Below are positions 20,749 through 31,081 of a DNA stretch of 36,380 bases, one piece after another; positions within the stretch are counted from its first letter, which is position 1, and each line of letters starts with the position of its first letter. Where the stretch lies: the NCBI GenBank assembly GCA_025449555.1, contig JANWJD010000061.1:1-36380 (forward strand), in the 5' to 3' direction. The notes beneath the pieces are model-generated. The model was not told the origin of the DNA, made no database searches, and saw only the letters and a list, made by a program, of their open reading frames with translations. The DNA comes from Chloroflexota bacterium (lineage in GTDB: Bacteria; Chloroflexota; UBA5177). Made by a program: the position numbers and the translations under genes.

Positions 20749-21555
20749 CTAGGTGGGGTCTTGAGCCAGGACCTGGGGATCACCGCGCACCCGTCCGGCG
20801 AAGATGGGCAGTGAGTCGTCGAGATCCACGTACACCCGTGGCTCCCTCAACGGATGGGCACTGGACTCGATCCAGCCTTCCTGCGTCGTGAAGGCAGCAA
20901 GATATCCGGCTCGTGATGCGGCCGCCACGACTGCCGGATCATACGCGCCATACGGATAGGCTAAGAGCCGCACGCTGCGGTGCAAATTGGTCTGCAACTC
21001 CCGACGGGACTCGGCGAGTTGCCATTGCACGCTCCGGGGTCCGATACGAGTCAAATCGGGATGTGTCATGGTGTGGGCTTCGATGTCCATGCCATGATCC
21101 GACATTGTCTTTACCTGTCGCCAGGTCAGATAGCGCGGTGTGCCAAGGAAGCTCGGGACGATGAAGAAGGTGGCGCTGAGGTGGGCTCGCCGGAGTGGCT
21201 CATACGCTCCCTGGAACACGTCAGCGTAGCCGTCGTCGAAGGTCAGGGCCACCGGCCTGGGTGGTAGCACAGCACCCGAGTGGAGATACTGCACGAGCTG
21301 TCGAACCGTGACCACATGATAGCCCCCAGTTCGCAGGTATCGAAGCTGGGCCGCGAATTGGCCCGGCAACACGGTCAATCCCCGTTCGAATGCGTCGTCC
21401 GACGGTTTCAGTGGTTTCACATGGTGATAGATCAGCACCGGCGCAAAGACTTGACGCGTCGTGGGCGCTGACGCTGCATGCGAGTGAAGCGAGGTACAGA
21501 GTACAGCGACGGCCGCGAGCAAGAGGCTGCGTGAGAGGTTTATCGTACGGTCCAC
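20749..21555 (-). CDS. Secreted polysaccharide deacetylase (NodB domain)
   Basis: The 268-residue protein begins with a signal peptide (about 1-28), followed by a NodB homology domain. Motif 1 is TFDDGY (105-110; D107 base, D108 metal) and motif 2 is HTMTH (H161 and H165 metal ligands). Motif 3 is AYPYGAYD. Such enzymes remove N- or O-acetyl groups from peptidoglycan or other polysaccharides outside the membrane. The GTG start at 21555 overlaps the end of the DUF3048 gene by 16 bases, so the two are co-expressed. Confidence 0.9.
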   Translation of the reverse strand: MDRTINLSRSLLLAAVAVLCTSLHSHAASAPTTRQVFAPVLIYHHVKPLKPSDDAFERGLTVLPGQFAAQLRYLRTGGYHVVTVRQLVQYLHSGAVLPPRPVALTFDDGYADVFQGAYEPLRRAHLSATFFIVPSFLGTPRYLTWRQVKTMSDHGMDIEAHTMTHPDLTRIGPRSVQWQLAESRRELQTNLHRSVRLLAYPYGAYDPAVVAAASRAGYLAAFTTQEGWIESSAHPLREPRVYVDLDDSLPIFAGRVRGDPQVLAQDPT

Positions 21556-22637
21556 GTAATCCGCGAACTCGGTGGGACTACCTCAATCCACGTCTGGCCA
21601 GGATTGAATGTAACCACTTTTCCCCGCAGATCAAGAAATGTTAAGGGTGCGTTGGGATTCGGCTGGTGCCAGGTACCTCGCTTGAGGGTTCCGTCCCGGA
21701 AGCACCACGCGGTTCCACGGCCGATGGTGGGAATCTGAATGCTTTCCGGCGTGATTCCAGCGTGCGGGTCGGCGGTGGCGGCGCCGGTTTGCATCACGAC
21801 GATATTCGAGGGACGCAGTGGCTGATGCGTATTGGCATCAATGTGGGGTGTACCGCCCATATAACGGAGATAGTTATTCGCGGCGCGATTGTAGACGTAC
21901 TTCACAGCGTAATCGCTCACCGGCGTCGGGGCGAGCGGATTGGCAAAAGCAATCGAAATCACGGTCGCATGCCCGCGAGCCTTCAGCGGTGCCGGCTGTT
22001 TGTGAAGAAGATACGCGTTGCTGTACGGCCAATTTTGCTGCTTTCCGTCCGCATACTGACGCAACTTGTAGGTGCTGGTGTACATGTTATGAGGCGCGAC
22101 CCGATCCTGACTGCGCCAGAACAGTGGTGTACCCGTGTTGAACAGGCTGATCTCCCAGCGATTCTCGTCGATGTTGAAGACTTTTGGGAGGAGCCAAAGT
22201 TGCCGCTGCGCGTCGTCATTGCCCCCGACATGGGCCAGAATGGCATGCAGAGCGGATGCCCAGTGATCGAAGTAGATCCGAGTACTACGGACCGGACCCA
22301 CTTTCGTGGCATCGTGCTCGAGGTAGATCGCCATGAACCGGGTCACGCCGCCTTCGGCCAGCGTCTCGATCACGGTGCTCGCCGCCGCCAGCCCGGCCTG
22401 CGGGCGTGAATCGGGCGAGTAGTTCTCCAGGATCACAGCCAGAGGCCGGCGCAGCGCTAGGTTTCGCGGTGTTGATTGACCGTCGAACGGTCCGGGTATG
22501 AATGCAGGTGGCTTGATGATAGGGAGCGATTTCGCGCCGATGGACGCGGAAACCTGTGTGCCGGCAGCGGTGCTTCCACAGGCTGAAAGGAGCACACCGC
22601 ACAGGCCGACGAGCGCGATCGAAAGGGGACGGATCAC
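21540..22637 (-). CDS. DUF3048 domain lipoprotein (YerB-like)
   Basis: The 365-residue protein has a lipoprotein signal (MIRPLSIALVGLCGVLLSAC, lipobox L-S-A-C, Cys 20), then the two-part DUF3048 fold. Recognisable segments are RPLAVILENYSPDSRPQAGL, GGVTRFMAIYL, GPVRSTRIYF, and the C-terminal GTAWCFRDGTLKRGTWH and GQTWIEVVP. The function of the family is unknown; it is extracytoplasmic. The GTG at 22637 lies 8 bases after GGAGG and starts directly at the signal peptide, so the 80-codon extension is discarded. It heads a three-gene cell-surface operon with the deacetylase and the two-helix protein. Confidence 0.88.
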   Translation of the reverse strand: MIRPLSIALVGLCGVLLSACGSTAAGTQVSASIGAKSLPIIKPPAFIPGPFDGQSTPRNLALRRPLAVILENYSPDSRPQAGLAAASTVIETLAEGGVTRFMAIYLEHDATKVGPVRSTRIYFDHWASALHAILAHVGGNDDAQRQLWLLPKVFNIDENRWEISLFNTGTPLFWRSQDRVAPHNMYTSTYKLRQYADGKQQNWPYSNAYLLHKQPAPLKARGHATVISIAFANPLAPTPVSDYAVKYVYNRAANNYLRYMGGTPHIDANTHQPLRPSNIVVMQTGAATADPHAGITPESIQIPTIGRGTAWCFRDGTLKRGTWHQPNPNAPLTFLDLRGKVVTFNPGQTWIEVVPPSSRITWTVR

Positions 22638-22668
22638 GAGCACTTCCTCCAGGAGACAAAGACGTGCG

Positions 22669-22697
22669 AATGTACCATACGCTTGACTGGAAGGCAA
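22669..22697 (-). promoter_or_regulatory. Promoter of the DUF3048-deacetylase operon
   Basis: On the minus strand TTGCCT (22697-22692), a 17-base spacer and TACATT (22674-22669) form a good promoter about 32 bases upstream of the GTG start. Confidence 0.5.
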
Positions 22698-22728
22698 GAG
22701 ATGGAATGCCATCGCAAGTGGAATGTAC

Positions 22729-22740
22729 ACTGACGTCAGT
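22729..22740. promoter_or_regulatory. Perfect 12-bp palindrome ACTGACGTCAGT
   Basis: This palindrome overlaps the end of a -10-like TACACT (22726-22731) and the expected start of transcription of the zinc-ribbon gene at 22768. A direct repeat of TGGAATG (22702-22708 and 22719-22725) lies just upstream. An operator is inferred. Confidence 0.35.
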
Positions 22741-22767
22741 CGCGCGCAGATGAGAAAGGGGACGGTG

Positions 22768-23097
22768 ATGGCGACCGAAACGAAGGACTTCACGTGCGAC
22801 ATTTGCGGTGGCCCGCTGGGCCAACAGCGGTGGCGTGGTTTTCCTCCCATTTGCAGCAAGTGCGAGATGGACAGCATTCACGATACGCCCGATTTGAGCG
22901 GGCCATATCTCGACTCGTATAACCGTTTGCGTGATTTACGGAATCAGCTTGCCGACACGTTTCGGCACCTGGAGAACGAAGACGACGCTATGTTCGAGGG
23001 CGAGCCGATCGTGGAAGTCATAGACCAGATCGAAGATCTGGCCCAAACATTCCTGGAGACCGTCGTCAAACCAGTGGATGAGTGGGAAGAGGGGTAA
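22768..23097 (+). CDS. Zinc-ribbon protein of unknown function
   Basis: This 109-residue acidic cytoplasmic protein has an N-terminal zinc ribbon (CDICGG and CSKC), then a helical region (SYNRLRDLRNQLADTFRHLE) and a second acidic helix ending DEWEEG. The ATG at 22768 follows AAAGGGG by 6 bases; the upstream ATG at 22723 overlaps the promoter and is discarded. I do not recognise the family beyond the ribbon. It is divergent from the DUF3048 gene and convergent with yjbQ. Confidence 0.75.
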   Translation: MATETKDFTCDICGGPLGQQRWRGFPPICSKCEMDSIHDTPDLSGPYLDSYNRLRDLRNQLADTFRHLENEDDAMFEGEPIVEVIDQIEDLAQTFLETVVKPVDEWEEG

Positions 23098-23124: not shown

Positions 23125-23604
23125 CTAGATCCCTATCACCTGAATCGTAACCTGTCTGGACTTGGGCCGGTCCAACTCGATCAAGAACACGCGCTGCCAC
23201 CGGCCAAGGACCATTCTTCCCGCCACCACGGGTACGTTCTCACTGGCACTCAACAGGAGATGCTGGCAGTGAGCATGCGCGTTTGGACACTCGTCCGGTT
23301 CCATGTTGACAGTACGTATGTTGAAATTGTTGTGGTGGTACTCGCGCTCGATGGGCGCAATCTCCGAGAGGAAGAGCGCCATGTCTTTCAGGAGTTCGGG
23401 TTCGCTTTCGTTGATCTTGATGGCCGCCGTGGTGTGCTGCGAGAAGATTACGACGATTCCGTTCGTGATGCCTGAACGATCCAGAATGTCGCTGACTTCG
23501 TCCGTTAGGTCGATGAATTGGGGAGCATTCGAGGTGGAACGGTGGAGCGTTTCGCTATAGGTGCGAAACGCTGGAACAGACTGAAACAGTTGGTGTTCGA
23601 TCAT
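23125..23604 (-). CDS. yjbQ: YjbQ/UPF0047 family protein (secondary thiamine-phosphate synthase)
   Basis: The 159-residue protein carries the family hallmarks SQHTTAAIKINE, ECPNAHAHCQHLL and MVLGRWQRVFLIELDRP. UPF0047 proteins form metal-containing trimers, and the E. coli member has weak thiamine-phosphate synthase activity; the physiological role is unsettled. The ATG at 23604 is preceded by AAGGAGG, but 16 bases away. The intervening GGTGGG-CGCAA-CCCATC can fold, which would shorten the effective spacing. The 189-base region up to the biotin carboxylase stop holds no other gene I can support. Confidence 0.9.
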   Translation of the reverse strand: MIEHQLFQSVPAFRTYSETLHRSTSNAPQFIDLTDEVSDILDRSGITNGIVVIFSQHTTAAIKINESEPELLKDMALFLSEIAPIEREYHHNNFNIRTVNMEPDECPNAHAHCQHLLLSASENVPVVAGRMVLGRWQRVFLIELDRPKSRQVTIQVIGI

Positions 23605-23793: not shown

Positions 23794-25542
23794 TTACTCA
23801 ATTCTGGCCAGCGGTTGATCGGTCTCAACCGTCTCTCCAACTTTCGTCAGAATTGCCGTCACGGTCCCCGCGCGATGTGCAATCACTTCGTTTTCCATTT
23901 TCATGGCTTCGATCAGCATGACTATATCGCCGGGTTGCACGGTATCGCCTGCCTGCCTCTTCAGCCCGATGACTGTGCCGTGCATCGGACTCACGAGCTC
24001 ATACTCGCGCGCGGCCGTTCGGGCCGAAGTTCGCTTTGCCGAAGGTTGCTTCCTCGGTGTGGATCGGGAACGAATTTCCGCCACTCGCACTCGAAAGACG
24101 CGCCGGTCGACCTCGATCTCGAAAAGCCGTGGGTCATCTCGCCATGTGTCGGCTTCCGCGACCATGGAGCCACCGCTCGCACCGCTGCCATCAGGCATGA
24201 GGTCGAGCGCGTGCTCATCCAGAAATGAGGTCGTAACCTCACCTGCGGTGAATTTTGGATGCCGCAGCGTGGAGATGTGAAACGGAATCGTGGTGCAGGG
24301 GCCGTCGATCGAATACTCATGCAAGGCACGAAGCGTACGGCGTCGCGCTGTCTCGCGGTCGGGTGCCCAGCAGATCAGCTTGGACATGAGGGAGTCATAG
24401 TCACCAGGGATGGTGAAGCCGGCATAGACACCCGAGTCCACGCGCGTTCCCGGGCCACCTGGCTCCCGATAGCGTGAGATCGTGGCAGGCGTGGGTCGAA
24501 ATCCGTTGGACGGATCCTCCGCATTGATGCGCACCTCGATGGCATGACCGCGTAACTGCTGGACGCTGTCGGGCAGAGTGATGTGCTCTCCCGCGGCTGC
24601 CAGGATCATCTCCTGAATGAGATCGACCCCTGTCACCCACTCGGTTACAGGATGTTCAACCTGTATCCGTGTGTTCATTTCGAGAAAGTAGAACTCCTCG
24701 TCCGGCGCGAGCAAAAACTCGACAGTTCCCGCACTCGCGTAGTCGACACTGCCGGCCACCCGAAGCGCCATATCGCCCATGCGCGCTCGCAATTCTGGGT
24801 TCACCGCCGGACTGGGACTCTCCTCGATCAATTTCTGATGCCGTCGTTGCACGGAGCAATCGCGTTCACCGAGATGCACCAGGCAGCCGTGGTGATCTCC
24901 CATGACCTGCATTTCCACGTGCCGTGGCTCGGTTATGTACCGTTCAACGTACACATCCGGCTGTCCAAAATACGCCAGCGCTTCGCGCCGTGCGCCCTCC
25001 AGCGCATCCGCCATTTCGACGGCGTCCCGGACGACTCGAATGCCGCGTCCTCCTCCTCCTCCGGCAGCTTTGATCATCAGGGGGAAACCACGTTCGTCGG
25101 CGAAGCGGCGCACCTCATCGAGCGATCGCACCGGTCCAGGTGAACCAGGAACCAGCGGTACGCCCAGGCCGGCGGCCGATCGGCGTGCGGCTACTTTATC
25201 GCCCATGGTTCGCATGGCATGCGAGCTCGGACCTATGAAGCACAGGCCCACGGCTCGTACTGCGTCGGCAAAGTCCGCGTTTTCTGCCAGGAAACCGTAT
25301 CCGGGATGCACGGCTTCGGCGCCGGATGTGTTTGCCACTTCGAGCAGCGCCTGGATATTGAGATAACTGGCGGATGCGGGCGGCGGTCCGAGGTAATAGG
25401 CTTCATCCGCCTCCAGCACAAAGAGGGAATCGCGATCCGCGTCGGAGAAGGCCACGGCGGACGTTATGCCCATCTCCCGCAAGGTGCGCACGATCCGGAC
25501 GGCGATCTCGCCTCGATTCGCGATCAACACCTTACGAAACAT
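23794..25542 (-). CDS. Acyl-CoA carboxylase alpha subunit: biotin carboxylase fused to BCCP
   Basis: The 582-residue protein has biotin carboxylase domains (about 1-445) opening MFRKVLIANRGEIAVRI, with the ATP-grasp Gly-rich loop KAAGGGGGRGIR and EMNTRIQVEHPVTE. A linker follows, then a C-terminal biotinyl domain with EAMKMEN, where the biotinylated lysine is about K548. It carboxylates its own biotin with ATP and bicarbonate. The ATG at 25542 matches the family N-terminus, and the upstream 48 codons are discarded. The gene overlaps the small-subunit gene by 11 bases and is the last of the operon. The BC-BCCP fusion is the actinobacterial/propionyl-CoA carboxylase type. Confidence 0.94.
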   Translation of the reverse strand: MFRKVLIANRGEIAVRIVRTLREMGITSAVAFSDADRDSLFVLEADEAYYLGPPPASASYLNIQALLEVANTSGAEAVHPGYGFLAENADFADAVRAVGLCFIGPSSHAMRTMGDKVAARRSAAGLGVPLVPGSPGPVRSLDEVRRFADERGFPLMIKAAGGGGGRGIRVVRDAVEMADALEGARREALAYFGQPDVYVERYITEPRHVEMQVMGDHHGCLVHLGERDCSVQRRHQKLIEESPSPAVNPELRARMGDMALRVAGSVDYASAGTVEFLLAPDEEFYFLEMNTRIQVEHPVTEWVTGVDLIQEMILAAAGEHITLPDSVQQLRGHAIEVRINAEDPSNGFRPTPATISRYREPGGPGTRVDSGVYAGFTIPGDYDSLMSKLICWAPDRETARRRTLRALHEYSIDGPCTTIPFHISTLRHPKFTAGEVTTSFLDEHALDLMPDGSGASGGSMVAEADTWRDDPRLFEIEVDRRVFRVRVAEIRSRSTPRKQPSAKRTSARTAAREYELVSPMHGTVIGLKRQAGDTVQPGDIVMLIEAMKMENEVIAHRAGTVTAILTKVGETVETDQPLARIE

Positions 25543-25747
25543 CTCGCCCCCAGCGCCGCTTCGAGCGACGAAGGTCGGATGTGGTCCCAAGGGCTTCCAG
25601 CCGACCCGTGAGCAACCATCGGCCGGCGGGTTCAATCGGATCTCTCGCGCGCTCGATTGAAGTGGAGAGATATGACTGAATCGCAATCGCTATGACTGCA
25701 CCGACCCGCTCGTCCTCAGGCGCTCCATCTATGAAATGCAGGTTCAT
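25532..25747 (-). CDS. Small acyl-CoA carboxylase-associated protein (epsilon-like subunit candidate)
   Basis: A 71-residue frame starts 2 bases after the carboxyltransferase stop and overlaps the biotin carboxylase start by 11 bases, so it fills the only gap in the operon. It has an N-terminal hydrophobic helix (RVGAVIAIAIQSYLSTSIE) and a C-terminal GRWLLTGRLEALG segment with a basic tail. Actinobacterial epsilon subunits (AccE/PccE) share this size, place and plan: an Ala/Val-rich helix, then a Trp/Arg-containing C-terminal motif. They stimulate and stabilise the carboxylase complex. Assignment as an epsilon-like subunit is an inference from position and pattern, not a clear sequence match. 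Confidence 0.65.
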   Translation of the reverse strand: MNLHFIDGAPEDERVGAVIAIAIQSYLSTSIERARDPIEPAGRWLLTGRLEALGTTSDLRRSKRRWGRDVS

Positions 25748-25749
25748 GG

Positions 25750-27345
25750 TTAGAGCGGAATATTGCCGTGTTTTTTCGGCGGGAGAGACGAGCGCTTCGT
25801 ACGCGACATGCTCAAAGCGCGGGTCAAGGCGAAACGGGTCCGCTGTGGTTCGATGACATCATCGACGTATCCCCGCGAGGCGGCGATGAACGGGTTGGCA
25901 AACCGCGTTTTGTAGTCCTCTATCAGCTCCGCCGCGCGCCCATCCGGATCCTCAGCTTCAGCCAGTTCGCGTCGGTAGATGATCTTTGCCGCCGCGTCCG
26001 GCCCCATCACGGCGATCTCGGCGCCGGGCCACGCCAGGTTCACGTCGGCTCTGATGTGCTTCGACGCCATGACGTCATATGCGCCACCGTAGGCCTTGCG
26101 GGTGATCACCGTGAGCTTGGGTACCGTGGCCTCCGCGAAGGCGTACAGGAGCTTGGCGCCGTGCCGGATGATGCCACCATATTCCTGGCCCGTGCCTGGC
26201 AGGAAGCCCGGCACATCGACGAAGGTGATGAGCGGAAGGTTGAAGGCATCACAAAATCGCACGAAGCGCGCTGCCTTTTCCGACGAATCGATATCGAGCA
26301 CACCGGCGAGATGCTGCGGCTGGTTCGCCACGATGCCCACCGGATAACCATCCATGCGCGCAAGCCCAACGATGATGTTCCGGGCGTACGAGGCCTGTAC
26401 TTCGAAGAAGTCAGCGTCGTCGACCACTTCCGAGATGACGATTTTCATATCGTACGGCTTGTTCGGCGCATCCGGCACGAGATCCAGCAGGATCTCGCTC
26501 TCCCGTTCAGGGTCGTCATCCGATTTCAGACGTGGCGGATCATCGAGGTTGTTGGACGGGAGGTAGCCGAGTAGAGTCCGAACGTCGGCATAGACCTCTT
26601 CCTCCGTGTCGGCCGCGAAATGCGCGACCCCGCTTTTGGTGGAATGAGTATCGGCGCCGCCCAGCGCCTCGAACGTCACCTCTTCCCCGGTGATCGTTTT
26701 CACCACGTCCGGCCCGGTGATGAACATGTACGAGATGTCGCGCACCATAAAGATGAAATCGGTGATGGCAGGAGAATAGACAGCACCGCCCGCGCACGGT
26801 CCGGCCACCACGGAAATCTGAGGTATCACGCCCGATGCCATCACGTTGCGCCAGAATATCTCCGCGTAGCCGCCAAGGCTCACCACGCCTTCCTGAATCC
26901 GGGCCCCGCCAGAATCATTGATCCCAACGATGGGGGCTCCCATCTTCATCGCCAGATCCATCACTTTCATGATCTTTTCGGCGTATGCTTCTCCCAGTGA
27001 GCCGCCGAAGACGGTGAAGTCCTGCGAGAACACGAATACCTGACGCCCGTCCACCGTCCCATAACCGGTGATCACACCGTCGCCCTGGTAGACGCGATCT
27101 TCTAGACCGAACCCTTGAACCCGATGGGTGACAAAGCGATCGAGTTCGACAAAGGAGCCCGGATCCAGCAGAAGGTCGATCCGCTCGCGCGCCGTTCGTT
27201 TGCCCCGCTCGTGCTGTTTCGCTTCCGCGACTTCGCCTGCCGGATGGAGCGCTTCCTGTTCTGCCCGGCGCAATCGCTCGAGTGGGGTTTCAGCTCGTTC
27301 GACTGAAGGGTCGCCGGTCGATTCATCAAGTGGCGTCGAAGTCAT
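25750..27345 (-). CDS. Acyl-CoA carboxylase beta subunit (carboxyltransferase, propionyl-CoA carboxylase-like)
   Basis: The 531-residue crotonase-fold carboxyltransferase moves the carboxyl group from biotin to acyl-CoA. Visible signatures are [28 protein letters not shown] (first oxyanion/acyl-CoA region), [25 protein letters not shown] and [14 protein letters not shown]. The Asp in AYGGAYD is at the position reported to set substrate preference in Streptomyces enzymes and fits propionyl-CoA; this is family knowledge applied by eye. The ATG overlaps the mutase stop codon (ATGA). The neighbouring mutase and SucCD genes support propionyl-CoA as the substrate. Confidence 0.94.
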
Positions 27346-28988
27346 GCCGGTTCCCGCGAGTCAAACGTACCGAACACACGTCGCATCGTATCCGACACCT
27401 CCCCGATGGTCGCGTAGCATCCCAGCGCAGCTTTGAGCGGATACATCACATTGTCGCCGGACCGACAGGATTCCTCCAGGCGCCATAGCGCCCGGGACAC
27501 GGCGTCAGAATCTCTCGTACGTCTCAGTTCCTGCAAGCGATCGCACTGAGCTTGCTCGAGTTCCGGATTCGATCGTATGAATTCGACCGGACCCGATTCT
27601 CCTTGGTGAAAAACGTTGACTCCCACTACCTGGCGCTCGCCGCGGTCCACCGCCCGCTGGTACTGGTATGCGGTCTCCTCGATCTGTGCCTGCATGAATC
27701 CGCTCTCGATGGCCATCACGGCCCCTCCCATTTCATCGATCCGCTCGATCAACTGCGATGCCTGGTCGGCGATTTGATCGGTCAGGTGCTCAATCAGGTA
27801 CGAGCCCCCAAGCGGATCCGCCACCTCGGGCACGCCGGTCTCACCGGCAATGATCTGCTGCGTACGCAGAGCAAGCGTCGCGGCCTCTTGACTCGGAAGT
27901 GAGAGCGCCTCGTCAAAGCCGTTGGTATGCAGGCTCTGCGTCCCTCCGAGTACGGCGCTCAAAGCCTGAATCGCCACTCGAACCACGTTATTCAGCGGTT
28001 GTTGGGCGGTCAAGGTCGATCCCGCGGTCTGCGTATGGAAGCGCATCAGCCACGATTTCGAATTGCGCGCCTGAAACCGTTCGCGCATGATGGTTGCCCA
28101 GAGCTGTCGAGCGGCACGAAACTTTGCTACCTCTTCCAGAAAGTTGCTGTGGGCGTTGAAAAAGAAACTCAGTCTGGGCGCAAAATGATCGACTTCCAGG
28201 CCCGCTTCGACGGCCGCCGAAACGTAGGCAATGGCATCGGCCAGAGTAAATGCCACTTCCTGTACCGCAGTCGAGCCGGCCTCGCGCATGTGGTACCCGC
28301 TGATGCTGATGGTATTCCAATTCGGAATTTCCATGGTGGCGTACGACATCAGATCGGTTACCAGCCGCATGGAGGGTCGGGGTGGGTAGATGTACGTTCC
28401 TCGCGCCGCGTACTCCTTGAGAATGTCATTTTGCACGGTGCCATTCAACGATGCCGGCGCGATCTCGCGCTTCTCACCCACCAATTGGTAGAGCAGGAGG
28501 AGCGAAGATGCGGTGGCATTGATGGTCATCGACGTGCTGACGCGATCGAGCGGGATGCCCTCGAGCAGCGTTTCCATATCGGCCAGACTGTCGATCGCCA
28601 CACCGACTCGACCGACTTCGCCACGTGCACGGGGATTATCCGAGTCGTACCCCATCTGGGTGGGAAGATCGAACGCGGTGCTCAGACCGGTCTGGCCCTG
28701 CGCAAGCAGGAAGTGGAAACGTTGGTTTGTCTCGTGTGCAGTTCCAAAACCTGAGTACTGACGCATAGTCCAACGGCGGCGCCGATACATGTCCGGGTAG
28801 ATGCCACGCGTAAACGGGAACGCACCGGGCGGCTCCTTATGCGAGCCGGCGTCCACGTCGTAGAACGGCAGAAGTGCGGGTACGTCGGTTTGTACCTCCG
28901 ACCCGTCCGCAGCCGCCCCACGAGTCACTGCTCGAACCGGTCCTCCATTCAGTCCATCGGTCGATGACTCGACGTCCTTTTCGTCCAA
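27342..28988 (-). CDS. Methylmalonyl-CoA mutase large subunit (no B12-binding domain)
   Basis: The 548-residue protein is the substrate-binding TIM-barrel of acyl-CoA mutases: [66 protein letters not shown] and the C-terminal VFGTFDS. Y68 and R196 correspond to residues that favour methylmalonyl-CoA over the isobutyryl- and hydroxyisobutyryl-CoA variants, judged from remembered alignments. It ends before a cobalamin domain, so a separate B12-binding subunit must exist elsewhere. The start is TTG at 28988 with CGGAG 5 bases upstream, 10 bases after the sucD stop. It interconverts (R)-methylmalonyl-CoA and succinyl-CoA with adenosylcobalamin. Confidence 0.92.
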
Positions 28989-28998
28989 AGAAGCTCCG

Positions 28999-29883
28999 TC
29001 AGCGCGTTGGCACAGCGCCCAGCAGTACTTCTATCCGTTCAGCGATGTCCGCGATGGAGTCTGCCACCGGCACTCCGACTGCTGTAAATGCGTCGACTTT
29101 ATGTTGCGGTCCACCGACTCCGCCGGTAATGATCGCGCCGGCGTGGCCCATGCGTTTGCCGGGTGGCGCGGTGCGCCCAGAAATAAAGGCAACCACCGGT
29201 TTCCCGATTCGGCTACCGATGTATTCGGCAGCCTCTTCCTCATCCGTGCCACCAATCTCGCCAATCAAAACAACAGCCTGAGTGTCGTCGTCGTCGTCGA
29301 AGAGGCGGAGAATGTCTGTGAAGGAGGTGCCGATGACCGGATCGCCCCCGATGCCGACTGTAGTTGACTGGCCGATGCCCCGCCGCGTCAGCTCGTTCAC
29401 CATTTCATACGTCAACGTACCGCTGCGGGAGACCACGCCGACATGCCCCTCCAAGAACAACTGATTCGGCATAATGCCGACTTTGCATCGTCCGGAACTG
29501 ACCAACCCGGGACAATTTGGGCCAATGAGTCGAGATCCACGATCCTCGACAAATCGATAGACTTTCACCTCGTCCTGCACCGGGATATGTTCGGTGATCG
29601 ACACGATGAGAGGTAATCCGGCGTCGGCTGCATTCATGATGGGATCGGCTCCAAAAGAGCCGGGGACAAAGATGACGGTCGCATTCGCGTTGGTTTGCGC
29701 TACCGCCTCGGCTACCGTATCGAAAACCGGCACTCCGTCGACGTCGGTCCCACCCTTGCACGGGGTAACGCCTGCCACCACATTGGTTCCGTAGGCTCGC
29801 ATCTGGGCTGTATGAAAGCTGCCCTCGCGTCCCGTTATGCCCTGCACCAACAGCCGAGTATCTTCATCGACCAGAATTGCCAT
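28999..29883 (-). CDS. sucD: Succinyl-CoA synthetase alpha subunit
   Basis: The 294-residue CoA-binding subunit carries the [14 protein letters not shown]-terminal motif, [24 protein letters not shown] and the phosphorylated histidine H247 in [10 protein letters not shown]. With SucC it makes succinate plus ATP or GTP from succinyl-CoA, or the reverse. Its ATG overlaps the sucC stop codon (TAATG). The mutase gene follows after 10 bases. Confidence 0.95.
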
Positions 29884-31043
29884 TAACGCTGTCCTCCAAC
29901 TCCGGCCGTCGACCGCTCTTGCATCTGTTCGAGCACCGATCGAGTTGCCGTCACAAGATCCGCCGCCGGAATGAAGGAAGAACCTTCCAGGAGTTCAAGG
30001 GCCTCCGCCTCGCGAGTGCCGGCCAGACGGATCGCGATGGGTACCGGGATGTCTCGCTCGCTCGCGACCTGCAGCAGACCCTTGGCGACTTCGTCGCCTC
30101 GAGTGATTCCGCCGAAAATGTTGATGACTATGCCCTTGACGTTCTCGTCCTGCAGCAGCACGTCGATCGCGTTTCGCACCACTTCAGCCCGTGCGCCGCC
30201 GCCGATGTCCAGAAAGTTCGCCGGGTTCCCGCCCACCTGTTTCACCACGTCGAGCGTCATCATGACGAGACCCGCGCCGTTTCCAATGATCCCGACATCG
30301 CCGCCGAGCCGGACGTACGCAAATCCCTTTTCGCTTGCTATCTGTTCCAGCGGATCGCCGATGGTTTCGCTTTGCAGCGCAGCCAGCTCCGGGTGACGGA
30401 AGAGAGCGCTGTCGTCCAGGTCCACCTTTGCATCGGCTGCGATGGCCCGACCATCGGTCGTGACCGCCAGCGGATTGACCTCCACCAGGAATCCATCTTC
30501 CTCTACCAGGACTTGATAGAGACCGGCGATGATGTTTTGAAGGTCCTTGAAAGCGGATCGCTCGAACCCGGCAGCGAACATTGCATCGCGAATCTGAAAC
30601 GGGAGCAATCCGTAGGCAGGATCGATCCACGTTCGGATGATGGCGTCGGGATTCGAGGCAGCGACGTCTTCGATATCGATGCCGCCCATGGAACTGAGCA
30701 TCAAGATGTAGCTGTGGTTGGCGCGGTCGAGCGTGATTCCGGCGTAGTACTCCTGGGCGATGGAGACCTGTTGTTCCACCAGGACTTTCTCGACCGTCAA
30801 GCCCTTCAGATCCATCCCGAGAATCTGACGTGCCGCTACTTCCGCCTCTTCCGGTGAGTTGGCCAGCTTGATGCCACCGGCCTTGCCGCGGCCCCCTACC
30901 AGTACCTGAGCCTTGACAGCGACCGATCCGAGGGTTCTTGCAATTTCAGCTGCTTCCTCCGGCGTGGTCGCGACCCCACCCGGTGGCACTGGAACTCCCA
31001 CGGCCCGCAGCAGTTCCTTGCCCATGTACTCCTGAAGTTTCAA
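29883..31043 (-). CDS. sucC: Succinyl-CoA synthetase beta subunit
   Basis: The 386-residue ATP-grasp subunit begins [14 protein letters not shown] and shows [26 protein letters not shown] and [15 protein letters not shown]. The TTG at 31043, 8 bases after GAGGAGG, matches the family N-terminus (usually M-x-L-x-E-Y-x-x-K), so the 12 upstream codons are discarded. It is the first gene of the six-gene operon, which suggests that succinyl-CoA synthetase and the propionyl-CoA route are expressed together. Confidence 0.95.
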
Positions 31044-31081
31044 GGGCGCAACCTCCTCTTTCGCTGGTCCGGAGCACAATC

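Follow-up and report, generated by a model that had tools for sequence, protein, structure and literature searches.

Carboxylases with a small third, epsilon-type subunit have so far been described in actinobacteria, where the subunit is known as AccE, PccE or AccE5 (Pfam family ACC_epsilon, PF13822), and, named differently, in halophilic archaea. In the latter, Hou et al. (2015) reportedly described PccX as the small subunit of the Haloferax mediterranei propionyl-CoA carboxylase, and PccX is essential in the haloarchaeal enzyme. Streptomyces complexes gain strongly in activity from the epsilon subunit, which is genetically linked to the beta subunit (PMC13118682), and accE5 of M. smegmatis is an essential gene (PMC4064979). 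Here we describe a short open reading frame (ORF) of a Chloroflexota bacterium which, judging from sequence comparisons, very probably encodes an epsilon-type third subunit of propionyl-CoA carboxylase, homologous to AccE/PccE and to a haloarchaeal ORF, and diverged past the PF13822 cut-off.

The window, i.e. the whole stretch of 36,380 nt that was analysed (contig JANWJD010000061.1), carries on its minus strand an operon of order sucC-sucD-mcm-pccB-ORF-pccA, in which adjacent genes overlap or lie a few bases apart. The first two genes encode a sucC-type succinyl-CoA ligase beta subunit (29883..31079; PF08442, E 3.2e-66) and a sucD-type succinyl-CoA ligase alpha subunit (28999..29883; TIGR01019, above cut-off). 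They are followed by the gene for the large, catalytic subunit of methylmalonyl-CoA mutase (27342..28988; PF01642, E 9.5e-216, and TIGR00641), the stop of which overlaps the start of pccB by 4 nt. The product of pccB (25750..27345) is a 531-aa carboxyltransferase (CT) beta subunit (Carboxyl_trans PF01039, E 6.7e-202), and that of pccA (23794..25542) is a 582-aa alpha subunit in which biotin carboxylase (BC) and BCCP are separated by a 72-residue linker (PF00289, PF02786, PF02785 and PF00364). No BT domain was detected in pccA, and the PCC_BT model (PF18140) has no match in the ORF or anywhere in this genome (G000). Together, these genes correspond to the pathway that turns propionyl-CoA into succinyl-CoA. 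Moreover, the nearest solved structure for the beta subunit is S. coelicolor PccB (1xny group; phmmer E 6.7e-212 to 1xnv/1xny). Asp422 of the S. coelicolor enzyme is the residue that tells PccB from AccB, and its Ala-Tyr-Asp context is retained in the window protein. Because of the gene set, the closest structure and this Asp context, the carboxylase of the operon is likely to be a propionyl-CoA carboxylase. On the 3' side of the operon, two ordinary genes lie on the same strand, encoding a DUF3048 protein (21540-22877) and a UPF0047 protein (23125-23604); a scan of the window for Rfam families and tRNA found none.

The small ORF occupies positions 25532..25747 of the minus strand, with a coding part at 25535-25747 and a stop codon at 25532-25534, and encodes a 71-aa protein (MNLHFIDGAPEDERVGAVIAIAIQSYLSTSIERARDPIEPAGRWLLTGRLEALGTTSDLRRSKRRWGRDVS). 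The pccB stop ends at 25750, which leaves a 2-nt gap to the ORF start, and pccA starts at the ATG at 25542 (MFRKVLIANRGEIA), preceded by a GGGGGCGAG stretch and overlapping the ORF by 11 nt. The coordinates, the gap and the overlap are exactly those given in the original prediction, to which the strand can now be added. That prediction also held the frame to be almost surely translated, which is overstated from position alone: in first-order Markov sequences of local composition, an ORF of equal length starts at most 10 nt after a stop in 7% of cases, and one genome alone is thus weak evidence. By comparison across genomes, on the other hand, its status as a real, conserved coding gene is secure. 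When 40 related genomes were searched blind at the protein level, the matches were weak, and several of the best ones adjoin pccB directly downstream. A homologous short ORF is present at the same place in five out of five other members of the family or order, with 31-41% identity. The beta-epsilon-alpha order recurs in the four remaining genomes of this family (G001-G004), and an order-level relative (G005) carries the epsilon-like gene after pccB and the alpha gene elsewhere. Residues M1, E13, A17, A22, E32, R49, E51 and W66 are invariant in all six aligned proteins (window and G001-G005). In a class-level relative (G006), no such ORF was found beside pccB. In G005, cold-shock and phosphatidyltransferase-like genes come next after the epsilon-like gene (L040, contig C30).

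An AccE/PccE-like subunit outside Actinobacteria had been suspected, and a PF13822 search suggested as a check. For the ORF itself, this search was negative: the 71-aa protein (P0001) matches neither PF13822 nor any other Pfam family or NCBIfam model, and a PF13822 search of its entire genome gave chance matches only, the ORF not being among them. Syntenic relatives do match, all of them below the gathering cut-off of 25 bits (range 13.5-23.7 bits). The best score is that of the G005 protein (23.7 bits, E 7.9e-5), followed by a Chloroflexus-type protein (18.1 bits, E 0.0042), a Herpetosiphon-type protein (18.1 bits, E 0.0043) and the same-family proteins of G002 (16.1 bits), G001 (14.6 bits) and G003 (13.5 bits); the G004, Roseiflexus-type and G157 proteins gave no match to this model. 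Several relatives have PF13822 as their top or sole Pfam match, and its cut-off is not attained by any Chloroflexota member. We therefore speak of an epsilon-type subunit homologous to PF13822, and do not file the protein as a member of that family. Even in Actinobacteriota, PF13822 misses many epsilon genes: it scores above cut-off in 7 of 81 sampled genomes, and short ORFs can be seen behind CT genes in additional genomes (loci L188, L189, L193 and L257-L275).

The window family resembles AccE/PccE/AccE5 in length, in the position of the gene beside, and directly after, that of the CT beta subunit, in having a BC-BCCP alpha partner, in its homology by profile, and in an acidic/Ala N-terminal motif of the G-x-P-x-x-E-E-x-A-A-x-V type, which leads into an Ala-rich helix and is followed by a conserved central Trp. 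E13, A17 and A22 are conserved in one alignment (A1), and in another (A4) A17 is invariant and W44 occurs in at least 90% of the rows. The second half of the protein differs, as the window family has a W-x-x-x-(G/A)-R-(L/R)-E-A segment there. For profile-profile comparisons, we used three sets: canonical AccE (Actinobacteriota, collected via PF13822), sub-threshold proteins encoded after CT genes (partly picked by position and by eye, and containing one Chloroflexota protein, L153), and haloarchaeal ORFs located after pccB. With hhalign, the window family matches the sub-threshold set of syntenic actinobacterial epsilon proteins with a probability of 97%, the haloarchaeal set with 93% and canonical AccE with 57%; between canonical AccE and the sub-threshold set the probability is 92%. 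In all three comparisons, the observed score was reached by none of 200 column shuffles (best shuffle 17.8 against an observed 26.7 for canonical AccE, and 22.3 against 39.5 for haloarchaea), and reversed profiles scored 11-15.

In the reciprocal direction, we searched 120 Actinobacteriota genomes with a Chloroflexota-only profile (A5). Among the best 25 matches, 20 adjoin a CT and/or BC gene, lying just 3' of the carboxyltransferase and/or just 5' of the biotin carboxylase gene. Proteins of the PccE type are among them. In addition, some actinobacterial proteins carry intermediate segments, namely VWAHAGRLEA (L189), RWIQAARLEG (L266) and RWLRAARLEG (L273), which resemble the RWLLTGRLEA of the window protein. 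These reciprocal matches and intermediates are the strongest evidence for what appears to be one family common to both phyla. They also bear on the possibility that a small carboxylase protein of independent origin has converged on AccE/PccE, both having a short Ala-rich helix and a Trp segment. Such a convergence would fit with the low similarity, the 57% obtained with canonical AccE and the failure to reach the Pfam cut-off, but the intermediates bridge both groups, reciprocal searches in the two phyla arrive at genes in the same position, and neither column shuffles nor reversal reproduce the signal. We consider it unlikely.

The predicted fold has three helices (residues 11-34, 43-52 and 59-67), with modest confidence (pLDDT 74, pTM 0.37). 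Foldseek returned no match for this model, a result which is uninformative given the small size and modest confidence of the model. The PDB contains AccE5 chains (9t97 among other entries). Profiles of the window family and of Chloroflexota only found nothing relevant there, and the Chloroflexota-only profile missed the AccE5 chains; a mixed profile finds them (E 0.0015), two canonical AccE sequences being part of that profile.

The haloarchaeal set consists of short ORFs located directly after pccB (L068, L078, L085 and L089). They share this position with the window gene, and their RW-x-x-(A/S)-GR-(L/V)-D-(A/S) segment is nearly the same as that of the window protein; they differ from it in being archaeal and acidic and in having longer linkers. 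These ORFs are probably PccX, and their matches suggest that PccX and AccE/PccE belong to one family. The product of the window ORF would thus belong to the AccE/PccE/PccX group as a divergent branch, a placement supported by the profile comparisons.

To follow the gene across the phylum, 301 Chloroflexota genomes were searched for PccB and with an epsilon profile (A3). All 31 genomes in which PccB matched best carry an epsilon-like gene: 29 were detected by A3 and two on closer inspection, one between pccB and pccA, found via its position (G157), and one just 5' of an alpha gene (G149). Among the remaining 270 genomes, only 12 gave an A3 match; three of these belong to the window family and have a pccB that is broken or divided between contigs, and six are weak matches which were not counted as confident (G011, G023, G060, G087, G169 and G215, those of G023 and G087 lying inside long frames). 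For this co-occurrence, Fisher p is 1.6e-28, a value inflated by shared ancestry and by the fact that seven of the matches are profile sequences or the assembly twin of one. The small protein of Chloroflexota thus tracks one PccB type, being linked to it and to the BT-less alpha subunit that goes with it through either gene position or co-occurrence.

In the survey of gene neighbourhoods that had been proposed for this phylum, short epsilon-like ORFs lie beside pccB and/or pccA in several lineages, and the Chloroflexus-type gene is unlinked. The order beta-epsilon-alpha is found in the window family and in G157, and the gene follows that of beta in G005, G252 and G193. An epsilon-alpha order occurs in a Roseiflexus-like genome (G165), in two Herpetosiphon-like genomes (G109 and G280), and in G069 and G149. 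Finally, in the large Chloroflexus-type family (f14) the gene is unlinked, lying at a distance from pccB and, in many genomes, following one for a glutamine amidotransferase (GatD/CobQ-like). The proteins of this family are 77-94 aa long (for example that of 84-86 aa encoded at L241:3692-3952 in G117; also L209-L211, L215 and L217-L230) and share a strongly conserved C-terminal tail, RW-x-TIERLRRAG-x-GG-x-GI-x-G, which is absent from the window protein. Compared with actinobacterial AccE/PccE genes, those of Chloroflexota thus commonly show a beta-epsilon-alpha or epsilon-alpha order, and differ further by this unlinked type with its own tail. As the Chloroflexus-type gene is far from pccB, its link to the carboxylase rests on the co-occurrence, inflated as it is by ancestry.

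Such a location raises the question of whether the protein, while homologous to epsilon, is mainly regulatory rather than structural, for example by tying the carboxylase to some other pathway. The Chloroflexus-type gene belongs to a separate cluster, in which it comes after proA- and gatD-like genes, and its expression can therefore be uncoupled from that of the carboxylase. By contrast, the small gene of the window and those of most other lineages are embedded with the beta and/or alpha gene, as fits a stoichiometric subunit, and we regard a mainly regulatory role as very unlikely, marginally more so than convergence.

The unlinked genes are also informative with respect to a much less probable explanation, according to which the window ORF is spurious, or else a non-functional spacer that couples pccB to pccA. 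One argument in its favour is that about 7% of random sequences of local composition yield such an ORF. It is already refuted by the homologous frames with invariant residues at the same place in five relatives, and a spacer role is impossible for stand-alone homologues, as these are unlinked from pccB and pccA. Furthermore, the latter are under constraint. For the window gene itself dN/dS is saturated (pS about 0.7, pN about 0.43-0.53), and selection was therefore measured on closer orthologues of the Chloroflexus type: close pairs give a dN/dS of 0.12-0.27, about 0.14, and the +1 frame gives a pN/pS above 1. A frame lost from related genomes and a lack of coding constraint were the two outcomes named beforehand as speaking against the gene, and neither was observed. 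Least probable of all, to the point of being negligible, is a delta/gamma-type accessory subunit of a sodium-pumping decarboxylase (OadG/MmdD-like): the best NCBIfam match of the beta subunit is mmdA (methylmalonyl-CoA decarboxylase alpha), but its score is under the cut-off (809 against 999 bits), the operon has a BC-BCCP fusion, which such decarboxylases do not have, the ORF product shows no OadG-type Pfam match and no evident membrane helix, and no OadB/MmdB-type membrane beta subunit gene was seen among the genes scanned.

The evidence thus favours an epsilon-type subunit, as suspected, with synteny, sub-threshold PF13822 matches, profile-profile comparisons, the reciprocal search, linkage to the beta and alpha genes and co-occurrence with PccB all pointing the same way. 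The further proposal of a divergent family holds insofar as the proteins are divergent and extend beyond Actinobacteria; rather than forming a free-standing family, they would be a branch of the AccE/PccE/PccX group. By analogy with actinobacterial work, the epsilon subunit would bind the carboxyltransferase (beta) core and help to dock or hold the biotinylated alpha subunit, thereby promoting holoenzyme assembly and activity at full rate. The contacts may be made by the invariant E-x-x-A-A helix and the W-x-x-x-(G/A)-R-(L/R)-E-A segment, and the carboxylase of this operon would act on propionyl-CoA en route to succinyl-CoA.

In other propionyl-CoA carboxylases, alpha and beta are joined by the BT domain, and one may guess that epsilon stands in for it. 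The BT domain would be a functional counterpart as a non-catalytic element joining alpha and beta; it differs in being a domain within alpha instead of a separate protein, and has no sequence relation to the window protein. A PCC_BT match occurs in none of the 35 confident epsilon genomes and in 27 of the 266 others, and since this test of exclusivity is weak (Fisher p 0.055), the replacement is offered purely as a hypothesis. A broader scenario, to which we give slightly less than an even chance, is that epsilon is old and widespread among Actinobacteriota, Chloroflexota and haloarchaea, where it forms part of propionyl-CoA carboxylases that lack BT and replaces BT docking, and that it is an overlooked, unlinked and required part of the propionyl-CoA carboxylase of the Chloroflexus 3-hydroxypropionate bicycle.

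Propionyl-CoA carboxylase catalyses a step of the 3-hydroxypropionate CO2-fixation cycle in Chloroflexus. An epsilon-type subunit has apparently been overlooked in photosynthetic Chloroflexus relatives. For this enzyme, the Chloroflexus genome paper gives only pccB and biotin-carboxylase genes (PMC3150298). When a two-gene C. aurantiacus propionyl-CoA carboxylase was introduced into E. coli, 0.2 mg of product per litre was obtained, against 0.5 mg per litre in the control without the enzyme (PMC5509990, Table 1). An absent third subunit would be one possible reason for this outcome, others being the thermophilic nature of the enzyme, wrong partner genes or poor expression. What is new here is a divergent, partly unlinked Chloroflexota branch of epsilon proteins which, on sequence grounds, appears to unite the small subunits of actinobacteria and haloarchaea. 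Should the Chloroflexota proteins be true epsilon subunits, such a subunit would not be special to actinomycetes, and the group would join with the small subunit of haloarchaea.
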